DNA of 64,000 nucleotides from Chryseobacterium aahli (GTDB lineage Bacteria > Bacteroidota > Bacteroidia > Flavobacteriales > Weeksellaceae), in NCBI RefSeq assembly GCF_022699665.1, contig NZ_JALDNB010000004.1:186001-250000 (forward strand), read 5' to 3'. This document shows positions 38,054 through 58,064 of the stretch, piece after piece. Below the pieces are notes generated by a model. It ran no database searches. It was not told where the DNA came from and saw nothing but the letters and a program-made list of their open reading frames with translations. A program made the translations under genes and the position numbers. The first letter of the stretch is position 1. Each line of letters opens with the position of its first letter.

Positions 38054-39253
38054 TTACAAAACTTCAATCTGATTCCTCAAAAGATCTTCAAATTCATCTC
38101 TTTTTCTGATCAGATGTGCCTTTCCGTCTAAGAAAAGAACTTCAGCAGGTTTTAATCTTGAATTGAAATTTGTACTCATCTCAAAACCGTAAGCTCCGGC
38201 TGTATGGAAAGCCAAAACATCACCTTCTCTTACTTCATTTAATTTTCTGTCCCAAGCAAAAGTATCAGTTTCACAGATGTTTCCAACTACGGTATAAATT
38301 CTTTCAGCACCTTTTGGGTTTGACAAATTCTCAATGGTATGGTAAGAATCATAAAACATCGGACGGATCAAATGATTAAATCCTGAATTAACCCCAACAA
38401 AAACGGTTGCCGTAGTTTGCTTGATAACATTCGCTTTCACCAATAAATATCCACATTTTCCAACCAAAAATTTCCCAGGTTCGAACCAAAGTTCAAATTT
38501 CTTACCTGTTTCTTTAGAAAAATCTGAAATCGCTTTCTCAACTTTTTTACCTAAGGCTTTCACATCTGTTTCCATATCGCTTTCCTGATAAGGAATTTTG
38601 AAACCGCTTCCCATATCCAAATATTTCAAGTTCGGGAAATGTTCAGATAATTCAAGCATAATTTCAAGAGCCTGCAAAAATACTTCAGGATCTTTAATTT
38701 CGCTTCCTGTATGCATGTGAAGACCTTCTACATTCAAGTTGGTGCTTTTCATCACACGTTCGATGTGACGCATCTGATGAATAGAAATTCCAAATTTTGA
38801 ATCGATATGTCCTGTGGAAATTTTATGGTTTCCGCCAGCATAAATATGTGGATTGATTCTTACAAAAATAGGATATGTATTTGCGTATTTGTTCCCGAAT
38901 TGCTCAAGAATTGAGATATTATCGATATTAATATGAACACCGTGCATCATTGCTTCTTCTATTTCAGCTAAGTCAACACAATTGGGAGTAAACAGTATTT
39001 TTTCTTTAGGAAAACCGGCTTTTAAACCTAATTTCACTTCACTAATCGAAACGCAATCCAAAGAAGCGCCGAGGTTCTTTATGTATTTTAAAATATTGAT
39101 GTTCGTTAAAGCCTTTGCAGCATAAAAGAACTTGGTGTGTTTTAAAAAAGAAGATGTAAGTTTTTCGTATTGAGTTTTGATCGATTCAGCATCGTAAACA
39201 TACACTGGTGTGCCAAATTCTTGGGCAATCTTTAATAATTCTTTTGGATTCAT
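38054..39253 (-). CDS. lysA: Diaminopimelate decarboxylase
   Basis: A 399-aa PLP enzyme of fold type III that converts meso-diaminopimelate to L-lysine, the last step of lysine synthesis. The Schiff-base lysine is in FFYAAKALTN. The HTGSE motif (GLHMHTGSEI) and glycine loop (LDMGSGFKIPY) bind the cofactor. EPGKFLVG and the CETDTFAWDR cysteine motif complete the dimer active site. The length is typical. The ATG at 39253 is preceded within 24 bases by a terminator hairpin and a Lys-rich leader frame, suggesting attenuation by lysine availability. Confidence 0.96.
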   Translation of the reverse strand: MNPKELLKIAQEFGTPVYVYDAESIKTQYEKLTSSFLKHTKFFYAAKALTNINILKYIKNLGASLDCVSISEVKLGLKAGFPKEKILFTPNCVDLAEIEEAMMHGVHINIDNISILEQFGNKYANTYPIFVRINPHIYAGGNHKISTGHIDSKFGISIHQMRHIERVMKSTNLNVEGLHMHTGSEIKDPEVFLQALEIMLELSEHFPNLKYLDMGSGFKIPYQESDMETDVKALGKKVEKAISDFSKETGKKFELWFEPGKFLVGKCGYLLVKANVIKQTTATVFVGVNSGFNHLIRPMFYDSYHTIENLSNPKGAERIYTVVGNICETDTFAWDRKLNEVREGDVLAFHTAGAYGFEMSTNFNSRLKPAEVLFLDGKAHLIRKRDEFEDLLRNQIEVL

Positions 39254-39269
39254 ATTTTAAATTTTACAT

Positions 39270-39302
39270 AAAAAAAGGCAGATTCTTCGAAAAGAGTCTG
39301 CC
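39270..39302 (-). terminator. lysA leader terminator/attenuator hairpin
   Basis: On the minus strand, GGCAGA-C-TCTT, a TTCG tetraloop and AAGA-A-TCTGCC form an 11-position stem with one C-A mismatch, directly followed by seven T. It ends 17 bases before the lysA ATG, so transcription must pass it to express lysA. Bases 39290-39297 can alternatively pair with 39329-39336, which would disrupt it. Confidence 0.8.
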
Positions 39303-39334
39303 ACAATAATTATTTTTTATGCAACACAACTCTT

Positions 39335-39406
39335 TTAGGTATTCCAAACCTTTGAAAACTTTACAGCTCCCTTTTTTCCGGTTTGTTTTTGTTTAAAATT
39401 TTGCAT
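39335..39406 (-). CDS. Putative lysine-rich leader peptide of lysA
   Basis: A 23-codon open frame (ATG 39406, TAA ending at 39335) with six Lys codons, including an adjacent pair: it begins MQNFKQKQTGKKGAV. A TATTTTTG promoter box lies at 39434-39427 on the minus strand, so the ATG would be close to the 5' end of the mRNA. The stop codon overlaps the first bases of an antiterminator strand. The position and codon content fit a ribosome-stalling leader peptide. In an AT-rich genome Lys codons are common, so coding is not certain. Confidence 0.5.
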   Translation of the reverse strand: MQNFKQKQTGKKGAVKFSKVWNT

Positions 39407-39426
39407 TGCTTATTTTTATTCTTTTG

Positions 39427-39434
39427 CAAAAATA
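39427..39434 (-). promoter_or_regulatory. -7 promoter box of the lysA leader transcript
   Basis: An exact TAnnTTTG match (TATTTTTG) lies 20 bases before the leader ATG. No good TTTG is seen at the -33 position. Confidence 0.45.
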
Positions 39435-39509
39435 CTATTTATTTTGAGAAATTGAATTTGAAATGGATTTTCTTCTTAATAAAAATACATTTGATTGTAA
39501 ATTGTTCTC

Positions 39510-40733
39510 TTATTTCGGTAACGGCAACGTCTCAAAATCACCTTTAATCAAAGCCAATTGCAAGTCATTGGTAAGATCTGATGCAGACATAGGCAAATCG
39601 ATTTTTAATTTTGAGATTTTACTTAAAGTCTGAATTTGGGTAAACAATTCATAGAAACCATAAGAAACTGCTTTTCCGTTTTCTATGATTAAAAACAATT
39701 TTTCTCCTAATTTTCTACCACTTCCCAACCATAGTTCGTTTCTTTTTCTGAAATCAATCTTCTTCTTAAAAACTTCAACATCTTTATATTCATCAATTTT
39801 ACTGATAAACTGAACTGCCTTAGACCCTTGAGTAAAAGCTTTAAATTTCAGAATTGGCTTTTCAGTTTTATTCAATGTATTTTTTTCAGCAACATATTTA
39901 TTGTTTCTAAAATACAAACCAAAAGGCAAAGACTCTCTCTTTTTGATGTTTTTTGAATTTAAAATCAGCTTGGCAATGATATCAGTTCCCGTTAATTCAA
40001 AATTGATCTGCTCAACATCACGCTGAATTTCTTCAAATTTTTTCGATTTAGAATTGAAAAGCTTTTTTGAAAACTTATTGATATCCTGAACATACTCGGA
40101 AAGAATAATCTTCCCAGATTCATTCTGGAAATAAACAAAACCTTTTTCGCTCGGCAAATCTTGAGTTAACAATTTGATTTTGTTGATATAAGTCTTAGCA
40201 TTCGTCTCTTCGTGCTGCTCCTGAATAATCTCGTTTTCGGTATCTTTTGAAACCAACAATTTAAACAATTCTAAAGTTGCTCTTGCGTCACCTTCTGCAC
40301 GATGCGCGTTGACTAAAGGAATGCCGAGCGATCTTACCAATTTTCCCAATGAATAACTTACCTCATCAGGAATCAGTTTTTTTGCTAAAGGAATTGTATC
40401 TAAAGTGTTGATTTTGAAATCATAACCAAGGCGTTGAAACGATTGACGAAGCATTCTGTAATCGAAATCGATGTTGTGCCCTACTAACGTTGTGCCTTCT
40501 GTAATTTCAACGACTCTTTTTGCCAATTCATGAAATTTCGGAGCGGTTTTAACCATTTTCGGGCTAATATTGGTCAATTTCTGAACAAAAGGCGTGATGT
40601 CACTTTCAGGATTGACAAGGGAAATAAATTGGTCGACAATTTTATGACCATCATATCTAAAAATGGCGATATCGATAATGCATTCTTTCCTGAACCCTGC
40701 ACCATTGCTTTCTATATCTATAATCGAATACAT
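39510..40733 (-). CDS. DEDDh exonuclease-domain protein
   Basis: A 407-aa protein. Residues 1-170 are a DnaQ-like 3'-5' exonuclease: Exo I YSIIDIESNGAG (D and E), Exo II LVGHNIDFDYRMLR, Exo III HRAEGDARATLELF with the DEDDh His. The remaining ~230 residues have no domain I can name; they include lysine-rich stretches (KKLFNSKSKKFEEIQRD) and may bind nucleic acid or a UvrC-like partner. It is a DNA polymerase III epsilon-like or stand-alone exonuclease. It lies upstream of the lysA leader on the same strand. Confidence 0.86.
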   Translation of the reverse strand: MYSIIDIESNGAGFRKECIIDIAIFRYDGHKIVDQFISLVNPESDITPFVQKLTNISPKMVKTAPKFHELAKRVVEITEGTTLVGHNIDFDYRMLRQSFQRLGYDFKINTLDTIPLAKKLIPDEVSYSLGKLVRSLGIPLVNAHRAEGDARATLELFKLLVSKDTENEIIQEQHEETNAKTYINKIKLLTQDLPSEKGFVYFQNESGKIILSEYVQDINKFSKKLFNSKSKKFEEIQRDVEQINFELTGTDIIAKLILNSKNIKKRESLPFGLYFRNNKYVAEKNTLNKTEKPILKFKAFTQGSKAVQFISKIDEYKDVEVFKKKIDFRKRNELWLGSGRKLGEKLFLIIENGKAVSYGFYELFTQIQTLSKISKLKIDLPMSASDLTNDLQLALIKGDFETLPLPK

Positions 40734-48436: not shown

Positions 48437-49783
48437 ATGGAATTAGCAATTAAGATCTTTCAATTTATATTAAGCATATCTATCTTAGTAATTCTTCACG
48501 AACTTGGGCATTTCTTACCCGCCAAATATTTCAAAACCAAAGTAGAAAAATTTTATCTATTCTTCGATCCGTGGTTTTCTTTAGCAAAAAAGAAAATTGG
48601 TGAAACCGAATATGGTATCGGATGGCTTCCTTTCGGAGGTTATGTGAAAATCGCCGGAATGGTTGACGAAAGTATGGATACCGAACAATTGAAGCAACCT
48701 GCTCAGCCTTGGGAATTCAGAGCTAAACCGGCTTGGCAGAGATTGATTATTATGCTTGGAGGAGTTACGGTAAACTTCTTCTTGGCTTGGATCATCTACG
48801 GATGTCTTTCTTTCTTTAATGGTGAAACATCTTTTGATACTGCGAAAGTAGACGCTCCGATGAACTATACAAGCGTTGCAAAAGGAATGGGTTTTCAGGA
48901 TGGAGATAAAATCTTAAAAGTAGACGGAAAAACTCAAAATAACCTTGATAAATTGGCTTTAGACGTTCTATTGAGCGACGAAATCACTGTTTTAAGAAAC
49001 GGAAAAGAAGTTACCTTCCCAACCAACGACGACGGTAAAGCAATGGCTTTCAGAGACGAAAATCCTAAATCATTTCTTACTCCAAGATTCCCTGCAATTA
49101 TCGATTCTATTTACAATCCTAAGACTTTACAAGCAGGGTTGAAAGTTGGTGACCAAGTAGTTTCTGTAGATGGAAAGAAGATTTCTTATTATGATGAATT
49201 TAAAGAAACTGTCCAAAATAGTGCAGGAAAAAATTTAAAAGTAGATGTATTAAGAGGCGGAGCAATTCAACCGCTTGTTTTATCAGTATCAAAAGAAGGA
49301 ACACTAGGATTGGCTTCTTACAAGCAGCTGCAAAAATTCTATGAGACAAAACATTTTACTTTCGGACAGTCAATCGGAAGAGGCTTTACAAGAAGTATTG
49401 AAAGTTTAACGTATCAGGTAAAACAATTTAAATTAATCTTCAACAAAAAGGTTCAGGGTTACAAAAAAGTTGGAGGACCGTTGGCAATCATCAAAAACAT
49501 GCCTGTTGACAAAGCTCAAGACGGAAGTGTTTCTATCGACTGGACGGCTTTCTGGAGTTTTACAGCAATGTTTTCTGTTTGGTTGGCGTTCTTAAACTTA
49601 ATTCCTATCCCTGGATTGGATGGTGGACACGTTATTTTCACATTATATGAGATGATTGTCGGAAAACCTGTTCCACAAAAGATATTGGAAAACGCACAGA
49701 TGGTTGGAGTTATCTTCCTGTTAGGCTTAATGTTACTGATTTTCGGAGCAGACATCTTTAAAATCATTACCAATAAATTTTAA
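48437..49783 (+). CDS. rseP: RIP zinc metalloprotease (site-2 protease) RseP
   Basis: A 448-aa inner membrane protease. The zinc motif HELGH (21-25) lies in the first membrane helix and the second metal motif LDGGH in PIPGLDGGHVIF. Two PDZ-like segments fall between (about 150-210 and 235-290: YNPKTLQAGLKVGDQVVSVD is in the second). The family cleaves membrane-embedded anti-sigma factors and remnant signal peptides. A functional link with the ECF/anti-sigma pair at 8.4-9.6 kb is possible but not shown. Strong promoter upstream. Confidence 0.95.
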   Translation: MELAIKIFQFILSISILVILHELGHFLPAKYFKTKVEKFYLFFDPWFSLAKKKIGETEYGIGWLPFGGYVKIAGMVDESMDTEQLKQPAQPWEFRAKPAWQRLIIMLGGVTVNFFLAWIIYGCLSFFNGETSFDTAKVDAPMNYTSVAKGMGFQDGDKILKVDGKTQNNLDKLALDVLLSDEITVLRNGKEVTFPTNDDGKAMAFRDENPKSFLTPRFPAIIDSIYNPKTLQAGLKVGDQVVSVDGKKISYYDEFKETVQNSAGKNLKVDVLRGGAIQPLVLSVSKEGTLGLASYKQLQKFYETKHFTFGQSIGRGFTRSIESLTYQVKQFKLIFNKKVQGYKKVGGPLAIIKNMPVDKAQDGSVSIDWTAFWSFTAMFSVWLAFLNLIPIPGLDGGHVIFTLYEMIVGKPVPQKILENAQMVGVIFLLGLMLLIFGADIFKIITNKF

Positions 49784-49863: not shown

Positions 49864-49937
49864 TCCTCCTTAGCTCAGTTGGTTAGAGCATCTGACTGTT
49901 AATCAGAGGGTCCTTGGTTCGAGCCCAAGAGGAGGAG
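49864..49937 (+). tRNA. tRNA-Asn(GTT), copy 1
   Basis: 74 nt. Acceptor TCCTCCT / AGGAGGA with discriminator G, D-arm AGCTCAGTTGGTTAGAGCA, anticodon arm with loop CTGTTAA (anticodon GTT, 49898-49900), T-arm CTTGG-TTCGAGC-CCAAG. CCA is not encoded. It is followed by its own terminator and is identical to the copy at 50276. Confidence 0.97.
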
Positions 49938-50275: not shown

Positions 50276-50349
50276 TCCTCCTTAGCTCAGTTGGTTAGAG
50301 CATCTGACTGTTAATCAGAGGGTCCTTGGTTCGAGCCCAAGAGGAGGAG
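50276..50349 (+). tRNA. tRNA-Asn(GTT), copy 2
   Basis: 74 nt, identical to copy 1 in every arm; anticodon GTT at 50310-50312. Its 3' flank and terminator are also copied, showing that the duplication unit was larger than the tRNA. Confidence 0.97.
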
Positions 50350-56975: not shown

Positions 56976-58064
56976 ATGAACAGAGATCTCTATATCGATT
57001 TTGCGAAAGGTTTAGCCACACTTTCCATTATATTTATTCATACCGCATTTTGGTCGGGACAGTTTTACATTATTCCTGAGATCAGAGTTTTTTCTTTGGT
57101 TTTTGATGTTGCTTTGTTTTATGCTTTAAGTGGAATCACTTCAGGTTCGAATATTGAAAAAACGCTTTACAGATTACTGAAGCTTCAGATTACCTACATG
57201 ATTTTTGTAACACTTCTGTTCTTTCTAGATTATTTCTTCAAAATTTTCGGGCTCACTTTTTTCTCGCTCGAATGGCTTCAGAGCTTCTACTCTACTTTTG
57301 GTTCAAAGTATTCGGCAACGAGTATTTCAACAGCACCGCAATGGCAGAATTTAGGAAACTGGTTTCTCCATGAATATTCAAATGCTGACACTTTTCCGGT
57401 GGTGATGGGAAGTTTTTGGTACTTAAAAGTTTATTTCATATTGACCGTTTTCGGAGTTTTAATTTTAAGATTTTTCCCGAAACACATCAATTGGTTTATC
57501 GGAATCTGCATTGCTTTAACTTTACTGTTTAATATTTCCCCTGAAATATATCCAACCGGACAAGTCGGTTATGTCACTTTTTATATGACGGTTTTCCTTA
57601 TCGGAAACAGAATGCGAGGCAAAACCATCCCTACCAAAATGATTCCTGTACTTTACGGATTGGTGGCAGCAGCTTTGGTCTGGATGTTTTGGTATTTCGG
57701 AGACGAAGTGTTTTTTAAAATCAACAAAAAGAAATTCCCGCCGCAAACTGCATATATCATTTGGACTTTCTTCTCACTTACAACTTTATTTGTGCTATAT
57801 AATCGATTAAAAATCACCAAAGAAAATTTCGTCACTCATATCGGTAAAAATGCTATTTTCTTTTATTTCGGTCAGGGAATCAGTTCGTCTTTGGTTTACT
57901 TTCTGGTCGTTCCGATGAAAGAATCGATGCCTTGGTGGATGTTGATGGTCATAATTTATATCATTAATGTGATTTTAGCTTTCATTATTGCAACAGGTTT
58001 AAAGAAATTTGATGGTTTGGGATGGAATGTTTTAGAAATTTTACGTAAAAAAACCGCTCAGTAA
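56976..58064 (+). CDS. Acyltransferase-3 family membrane protein
   Basis: A 362-aa protein starting at ATG 56976 (MNRDLYIDFAKGLATLSIIF); a TTG seven codons upstream is in frame but unlikely. The opening R-x-x-x-x-D-F-A-K-G followed by FIHTAFW is the usual acyltransferase-3 start, with the His as the putative catalytic residue. About ten membrane helices are visible. The family O-acylates surface glycans or lipids. No glycan cluster is nearby, so the target is open. Confidence 0.85.
   Translation: MNRDLYIDFAKGLATLSIIFIHTAFWSGQFYIIPEIRVFSLVFDVALFYALSGITSGSNIEKTLYRLLKLQITYMIFVTLLFFLDYFFKIFGLTFFSLEWLQSFYSTFGSKYSATSISTAPQWQNLGNWFLHEYSNADTFPVVMGSFWYLKVYFILTVFGVLILRFFPKHINWFIGICIALTLLFNISPEIYPTGQVGYVTFYMTVFLIGNRMRGKTIPTKMIPVLYGLVAAALVWMFWYFGDEVFFKINKKKFPPQTAYIIWTFFSLTTLFVLYNRLKITKENFVTHIGKNAIFFYFGQGISSSLVYFLVVPMKESMPWWMLMVIIYIINVILAFIIATGLKKFDGLGWNVLEILRKKTAQ

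Follow-up and report, generated by a model that had tools for sequence, protein, structure and literature searches.

A probable lysine leader-peptide attenuator upstream of lysA in Chryseobacterium and related genera

Amino-acid operons of E. coli, among them trp, his, thr, ilv, leu and phe, are controlled by leader-peptide attenuators. To our knowledge, lysine is not usually counted among the amino acids that control their own synthesis through a leader-peptide attenuator. RNA control of lysine is normally ascribed to the L-box riboswitch, a lysine-responsive control found before lysine genes, in which the antiterminator strand is shared with helix P1. The Bacteroid-trp RNA is a Trp leader attenuator. 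It is listed for Bacteroidetes as a candidate cis-regulatory RNA (RF01692; Weinberg 2010, PMC2864571). In Flavobacterium psychrophilum, the regions upstream of amino-acid operons are reported to show strong signs of leader-peptide attenuation (PMC9723704). The SEP5 sORF of Sinorhizobium meliloti lies in the 5' UTR of an aspartate dehydrogenase gene and is presented as possibly a leader peptide (PMC10117765). The lysQ gene of Lactococcus is mentioned in a sentence about histidyl-tRNA (PMC4833913), and the codons of Salmonella orf34 are Arg codons, the Lys codons discussed there being those of a mutant (PMC6386406). No lysine leader attenuator for a lysine-synthesis gene was seen among the open papers listed.

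The element presented here lies upstream of lysA in a genome of Chryseobacterium (the genus is given by named relatives), within a stretch of 64,000 nucleotides that was analysed as a whole and is called the window. A preliminary description of this DNA had listed, in order on the minus strand, a TATTTTTG promoter box; a 23-codon frame with six Lys codons (5, 7, 11, 12, 16 and 19); a strand AAAAGAGT (39336-39329) that begins inside the leader stop codon; a terminator that includes ACTCTTTT (39297-39290) and has a TTCG loop and seven T; and then lysA. All these parts are present and had been located correctly to the base (Table 1); the frame starts at the ATG 39406-39404, its stop codon is at 39337-39335, and the terminator hairpin reads GGCAGACTCTTTTCGAAGAATCTGCC. 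They had been read as an attenuator, an interpretation supported by the coding test and by the conservation of both alternative stems reported below. With a probability of about 0.85, the element controls lysA as a ribosome-mediated (leader-peptide) transcription attenuator, with charged lysyl-tRNA as the sensed signal.

Table 1. Parts of the leader and neighbouring gene, in window coordinates.
Feature	Position	Strand	Evidence or remark
Promoter box TATTTTTG	39427..39434	-	fits TAnnTTTG box
Leader frame MQNFKQKQTGKKGAVKFSKVWNT + TAA	39335..39406	-	23 codons, 6 Lys; coding test
Region 1, GCAAUGCAA..UUUUA, P1 5' strand, holds leader start codon	39394..39409	-	RNAalifold, 43 sequences
P2 5' strand CAAACC	39380..39385	-	partner GGUUUG 39350-39345
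P2 3' strand GGUUUG, codons 19-21	39345..39350	-	RNAalifold consensus
P3 5' strand GGGAGCU	39365..39371	-	partner AGUUUUC 39360-39354; within codons 12-18
P3 3' strand AGUUUUC	39354..39360	-	RNAalifold consensus
Region 2, UAAAAGAGUUGUGUUGC, from leader stop codon; P1 3' strand and antiterminator 5' strand	39321..39337	-	
Region 3, GCAGACUCUUUU, partner of region 2 (antiterminator) or 3' arm (terminator)	39290..39301	-	
Intrinsic terminator: hairpin 39302-39277 and seven T 39276-39270	39270..39302	-	-12.6 kcal/mol
lysA, diaminopimelate decarboxylase	38054..39253	-	TIGR01048, 385 bits, cut-off 298, E 2.9e-115

The TAnnTTTG consensus, which we take to be the Bacteroidota promoter box, is matched by TATTTTTG. 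The leader frame stands between this box and the terminator, 81 nt 5' of lysA, the ATG of which is at 39253. As the frame of the upstream gene, a DnaQ-like exonuclease, ends at 39510, the leader occupies genuine intergenic space. The UUCG loop of the terminator is closed by a U-A pair and is thus not the extra-stable C(UUCG)G tetraloop.

Chance is a poor explanation of the arrangement within the window. Six Lys in 22 residues have a binomial probability of 0.007 at the Lys content of the window's long frames (8.2%). A terminator-like hairpin is found at most 80 nt upstream of 3 of the 59 window frames of at least 120 aa, and lysA is the only one of the three to have also a short frame in which one amino acid reaches at least 20%. 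The other two frames (48437-49783 and 56976-58064, + strand) have no such short frame in between, and their hairpins are probably the ends of preceding genes. The folding energy of the leader is -34.2 kcal/mol, compared with a mean of -23.2 for shuffled sequences (z -3.5), and none of 200 shuffles was as good.

The coding character of the short frame was examined on 99 unique 23-codon leaders. Parsimony gives 157 changes, of which 31 fall at first, 28 at second and 98 at third codon positions. In frame 0, 85 changes are synonymous versus 39.3 expected if the same base changes are placed randomly on the same bases, a value reached by none of 2000 simulations; the other two frames have 28 versus 43.7 and 18 versus 40.7. 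The count of zero nonsense changes is partly built in, since open frames were chosen. Fifteen 25-codon leaders of other genera (group B) yield 46 synonymous changes versus 34.0 expected (p ~0.011). Judged by this substitution pattern, selection acts on the encoded peptide, in this one reading frame only, and the leader is apparently translated. Lys occupies codons 5, 11, 12 and 19 in all 110 of the 23-codon leaders; at codon 16, 87 of them have Lys and the other 23 Arg. Over 130 leaders, Lys makes up 25.3% of the residues versus 8.2% in the window's long frames, at least four Lys having been part of the rule by which leaders were selected. Other leaders, such as MIRFTSIKQVASKGKKFFSKENIGV, MTAKKSIKKFATKGKKLSTKANIVH and MKKGSKKFSKKPV, are worded differently and contain 4 to 9 Lys. 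NCBIfam has no family for the 23-aa peptide.

Two alignments were used for the RNA. That of group A contains 43 of the 44 non-redundant leaders chosen among 100 unique ones, the omitted one being L081, which has two additional codons. That of group B contains 15 of 19 (L097, L105, L111 and L119 differ too much in length); the row ends of L090 and L095 were set by hand. The short frame, its Lys codons and both alternative stems are conserved over the relatives that carry the leader. In particular, the complementarity that had been claimed between the strand at the stop codon and the 5' arm of the terminator is kept in nearly all rows. Regions 2 and 3 are paired in 94.9% of 450 cells in group A (43 sequences), compared with 46-68% for slid partners; the corresponding figures for group B are 85.7% of 105 cells and 31-64%. 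The gain over letter shuffles is small, as expected of columns that hardly vary: the paired fraction was reached by 30 of 500 shuffles in group A and 72 of 500 in group B, and the covariation score by 20 and 23 of 500, respectively. Slid partners in group A show as many both-sided changes as the antiterminator, or more. Taken singly (119 unique leaders), the antiterminators have a median energy of -11.8 kcal/mol with a range of -16.9 to -7.3, the weak one of L155 being at -7.3, and the complementarity has p <=0.05 in only 85 of the 119 (200 letter shuffles each).

Some of the variation that does occur follows the antiterminator. In L162, U-A replaces G-C at columns 92-129, the second of which has no partner in the terminator. 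In a comparison of 126 of 130 rows (without L097, L105, L111 and L119), region 3 carries CAGG in each of the 20 rows with AAGAC (AAGGAC in one case); these rows are related and do not represent 20 events. Rows with AAGAG carry either CAGA or CAGG. The AAGAC rows were considered as a broken pair (6 of 43 unpaired at columns 92-129), a reading that was rejected, as the bulge moves and full pairing is kept with 11-12 pairs. GGUCUG goes with CAGGCC in L110 and with CAGACU in L106. Together, L162, the AAGAC/CAGG rows and the pair L110 and L106 tie the conservation to the antiterminator stem.

By its anatomy, the leader would work like trp-type attenuation. Transcription would start just after TATTTTTG, and a ribosome would load on the 23-codon frame. 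When lysine is plentiful, the ribosome would reach the stop codon and cover region 2 (AAAAGAGUUG), region 3 would join the terminator, and transcription would stop before lysA. When lysine is short, the ribosome would stall at a Lys codon, which would leave region 2 free and disrupt the fold P1-P3 described below; region 2 would then pair with region 3, no terminator would form, and lysA would be transcribed. In this scheme, lysine would be the signal and lysA the gene that responds. An altered AAAAGAGU would lock the switch off. If no ribosome is present, P1, which joins the start-codon region to region 2, may hold region 2, with formation of the terminator.

The scheme was examined by folding with the bases under the ribosome masked. 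The leading edge of the ribosome was taken as ~10 nt beyond the A-site codon, which is the toeprint distance; a value of ~12 nt appears in PMC4833913. In the window, region 2 stays free whichever Lys codon the ribosome stalls at, Lys 19 being the last at which all of it is free; a ribosome at the stop codon covers 12 of 14 pairs. The terminator reaches 0.96 without ribosome and 0.96 with a ribosome at the stop codon. With a stall at Lys 11 or 12, the antiterminator is at 0.88 and the terminator at 0.02; the antiterminator is at 0.68 with a stall at Lys 19, and the terminator at 0.78 with a stall at Lys 16. Twenty-one leaders were folded in this way. All eight group A representatives favour the antiterminator at Lys 11 and 12, L040 narrowly. 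Several rows of this group favour the terminator with a stall at Lys 16 or 19, among them L021 (0.93), L040 (0.98) and L068 at Lys 19. At equilibrium, the terminator wins at every Lys stall tested in 9 of the 21 (L057, L060, L069, L086, L102, L106, L110, L115 and L119), where the switch would therefore have to be kinetic. In the nascent RNA of these nine, before the 3' arm, the antiterminator reaches 0.69-1.00, except in L106, where it is at 0.24-0.36 at the earlier Lys codons and at 0.96 at the last. The nascent RNA of the window prefers the 2:3 pairing (0.89) without ribosome or 3' arm, and the terminator of L111 is only at 0.07 without ribosome, so that termination of the untranslated leader is uncertain.

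Two leaders of genus g11, L097 and L105, have 31 codons, with region 2 inside the last codons and the stop codon later. A ribosome at the stop codon of L105 would still cover region 2; the last Lys codon of this leader is inside region 2, and a stall there would cover it.

A further fold, unnoticed in the preliminary description, encloses the whole frame and supplies region 1. On the 43 group A leaders, RNAalifold finds P1, formed by the start-codon region with the strand that follows the stop codon, P2, P3 and the terminator. This fold has 99.0% of 1373 cells paired, compared with 31-60% for slid partners. The proportions are 99.2% and 96.6% for the P1 helices, 100% for the five-pair consensus helix of P2, 99.3% for the P3 hairpin, and 99.8% for the terminator (99.3% in group B). 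Departures are mostly to G-U pairs. Two pairs are changed on both sides, with up to four for slid partners, so that covariation proper is weak in this very conserved group. On the 15 group B leaders, RNAalifold finds P3 and the terminator, and P1 is present in some single folds only. In this group, P3 and the terminator pair in 98.3% of 240 cells, and 15 cells carry changes on both sides; neither value was reached by any of 500 shuffles, and the number of pairs changed was reached by 31 of 500. The equivalent of P3 is 96.7% paired, with both-sided change. The complementarity of UUGCAU to the leader AUGCAA belongs to P1, and its reading as chance was dropped. A protector pairing of CUCU (codons 17-18) to AGAG was also dropped: the clade of the window has UUUUCA there, and P3 explains CUCU.

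The presence of this fold raises two alternatives. The element may be a two-input device, riboswitch and attenuator in one RNA, in which stalling at Lys codons is combined with P1-P3 as a sensor of its own; P1-P3, whose P1 contains the start codon, would either bind lysine or keep that codon locked. We regard this as decidedly unlikely. The other alternative is a riboswitch, with P1-P3 as the aptamer, lysine or another ligand stabilizing P1 to cause termination, and the frame incidental or secondary. The 3' strand of P1 is indeed the antiterminator strand, which is the topology of a terminator riboswitch, P1-P3 is conserved in group A, and the bases of its internal loop are nearly invariant (GGAAAAAAG opposite AAGG). 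This explanation is nevertheless very improbable, as the frame is selected as a protein in its own frame only, its Lys codons are kept even in group B, whose fold is different (the RNAalifold consensus has neither P1 nor P2), the leader stops at region 2, and no Rfam family matches here at threshold.

Searched with Rfam 15 at gathering thresholds, the whole window has nothing at this place and two matches, both tRNAs. The lysine riboswitch model has no match in the whole window at gathering, nor between 38900 and 39700 at E up to 5, and nine weak Rfam matches in the latter interval were rejected as all are below the cut-off of their own family. Seven representative leaders have no Rfam 15 match at threshold, and Bacteroid-trp (RF01692) has none at threshold in the window or in these seven. 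The two tRNA genes (49864-49937 and 50276-50349, + strand) have equal Rfam scores of 69 bits and are ~340 bases apart.

The text of the leader is conserved beyond its Lys codons. G10, G13, F17, V20, W21 and N22 are present in 110 of 110 leaders of 23 codons, and S18 in 109. AAG is used at codon 12 in 109 of these 110 leaders and at codon 19 in all of them; at codon 11, which is unpaired, 96 have AAA and 14 AAG. The final G of codon 12 opens P3 (column 51), and that of codon 19 opens the P2 3' strand (column 72). G13, F17, S18, V20 and W21 overlap P2 or P3 strands, unlike G10 and N22. The leader looks written for both peptide and fold, and this dual constraint makes it less likely that the leader is an arrest peptide. 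In such a peptide, the nascent K-G-x-x-x-F-S-K would stall in the exit tunnel on lysine or another small molecule, and not on uncharged tRNA. The conserved residues other than Lys would suit an arrest peptide, and K-G-x-x-x-F-S-K recurs in many group B leaders. Pairing of the RNA explains most of these residues, G10 and N22 excepted; the C-terminal part differs between the groups, and L111 keeps little but Lys-rich text. We give this explanation very little credence.

The distribution of the element was examined across the genus, the family and the order. In a DNA search, it was matched over nearly the whole 187 nt with 85-100% identity in 118 of 148 genomes of the same genus, which were an even draw; the remaining 30 had short chance-like matches or none. 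The Lys-rich frame with the terminator is present in 131 of 179 lysA upstream regions of the family, a proportion that is not a prevalence, as region fetching favoured genomes with a match. The 179 regions come from 177 genomes (L007/L034 and L012/L035 are duplicate fetches) and exclude L003 and L033, which are copies of the window. The element was seen in 93 of the 102 genomes fetched from the genus and in 36 of the 75 from other genera, and altogether in seven genera of the family (g1, g7, g9, g11, g24, g26 and g27). A GKK leader occurs in 65 of 80 named loci, nearly all of them Chryseobacterium. Within the 50 nt 5' of the leader ATG, 127 of 130 regions with a leader contain a TAnnTTTG box, the end of which is 16-29 nt from the ATG; the T run is ~18-45 nt before lysA. 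The position of the lysA start is only approximate in L178, L180, L182 and 37 non-family regions.

The start codon of the leader is ATG in 130 of the 131 leader-bearing regions. The sole GTG-started leader, L096 (GTGAAAGTTCTTACATCT...), has the Lys-rich frame VKVLTSIKKVTAKGKKFFSKAIDVD, the usual stop codon, region 2 and the terminator, and lies ~155 to 80 nt before lysA.

Homologues with the hairpin and without the frame or the Lys codons would speak against attenuation, according to the preliminary description; none was found among the 179 family regions. Of the 48 regions without the frame, only L100, L108 and L180 have a hairpin and T run within ~50 nt of lysA, and these hairpins are A+T-rich and weaker (-7.1 to -10.5), unlike the lysA terminator. 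L071 and L179, read on the correct strand, have no leader and no terminator near lysA. Another explanation is that the terminator is constitutive or controlled by a protein and follows a small gene for a functional peptide, with lysA expressed by read-through or from another promoter. The substitution pattern of the frame, which is that of a genuine small protein gene, would agree with this explanation. It is scarcely credible because frame and terminator before lysA are either both present or both absent, the own genome has no other convincing copy, the window has no TAnnTTTG between terminator and lysA, and the antiterminator strand is kept.

The own genome was searched with both covariance models, without any other convincing copy of the element. 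Three candidates were rejected: a 73% match (L002), which is a promoter-like stretch before another gene; the second match of the group A model (L264, E 0.83), which has no Lys frame; and a match of the group B model (L273 1501-1633, C14:4498-4630), in which Lys-rich text is followed by a terminator and another gene. The Lys-rich text of the last is the C-terminal tail KKAPAKKKAAAKKKK of a long frame, OmpA-like in our reading. A plasmid search gave no match.

The element is patchily absent within the genus, leaderless loci occurring in several places of the lysA tree, which suggests repeated loss or exchange inside the genus. Its absence from 48 of the 179 regions means that it is dispensable. 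All nine leaderless regions fetched from the genus (L036-L039, L041, L042 and L050-L052) have TAnnTTTG 38-43 nt before lysA, a promoter-like box without leader or terminator. In genus g2, a conserved short frame ending in FAPKDI(D/E)(G/T)KW(D/N)KWK is found ~35 nt before lysA without a terminator (L088, L098, L099 and L113); it is perhaps the C-terminus of the preceding gene.

Five regions from a more distant lysA group (55-60% identity) were examined and none has the element. A Lys leader with terminator is absent from 37 lysA upstream regions of other families of the order, drawn from 53 non-family lysA matches (14 genomes of family f16, of 0.3-0.6 Mb, as well as G318 and G302 were not fetched). 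Four of the 37 (L292, L297, L298 and L319) have a strong terminator before lysA, behind the end of the upstream gene and without a Lys frame. The order was searched with the group B covariance model only, the group A model having been run on the own genome only. Over 246 genomes, matches were obtained in 26, of which three are lysA leaders of the family; the other 23, read by eye, are terminators at gene ends and were rejected as copies of the leader. This negative result is weak because the group B model missed group A leaders, its matches in G000, G002, G044, G060, G221 and G236 lying elsewhere. As far as sampled, the element is specific to the family.

The Lys codons, the position of the stop codon, both alternative stems and the spacing of the promoter box are held together in seven genera. 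By means of the attenuator, the cell would read lysine shortage before making LysA, the enzyme that completes lysine synthesis. For Bacteroidota, in which apparently few cases of leader attenuation have been worked out, the element is a well-conserved model, with the species that lack it as a natural control.

Like E. coli-type attenuators, the lysA leader has a short frame that is rich in codons of the end product and stops at the antiterminator strand, stems that exclude each other, and a terminator before a biosynthetic gene. It differs from them in that lysine would be sensed, in its Bacteroidota-type box without an obvious Shine-Dalgarno sequence, and in preceding lysA alone. Moreover, region 1 of group A is the start-codon region of the leader, so that the protector stem encloses the whole frame, unlike in E. 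coli attenuators. With the L box it has in common the control before a lysine gene and an antiterminator strand shared with the P1 helix; it is set apart by its apparently translated Lys-rich frame and by the lack of an Rfam match. Closer in phylogeny, the proposed leaders of Flavobacterium psychrophilum belong to the same phylum and also have a short peptide upstream of amino-acid synthesis operons, and structured 5' elements of this species, for instance those of pheA and hisG, are likewise without Rfam match; the main text of that report, unlike the present case, contains no occurrence of 'lysine' or 'lysA' (PMC9723704). SEP5 resembles the lysA leader as a short frame with Lys codons (three) in a 5' UTR, and differs from it as it consists mainly of Thr (six codons), belongs to another gene and phylum, and comes with no terminator logic in the passage that presents it (PMC10117765). 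The lysA leader brings a new amino-acid specificity to a known kind of regulation, in the form of an RNA element that Rfam does not contain.
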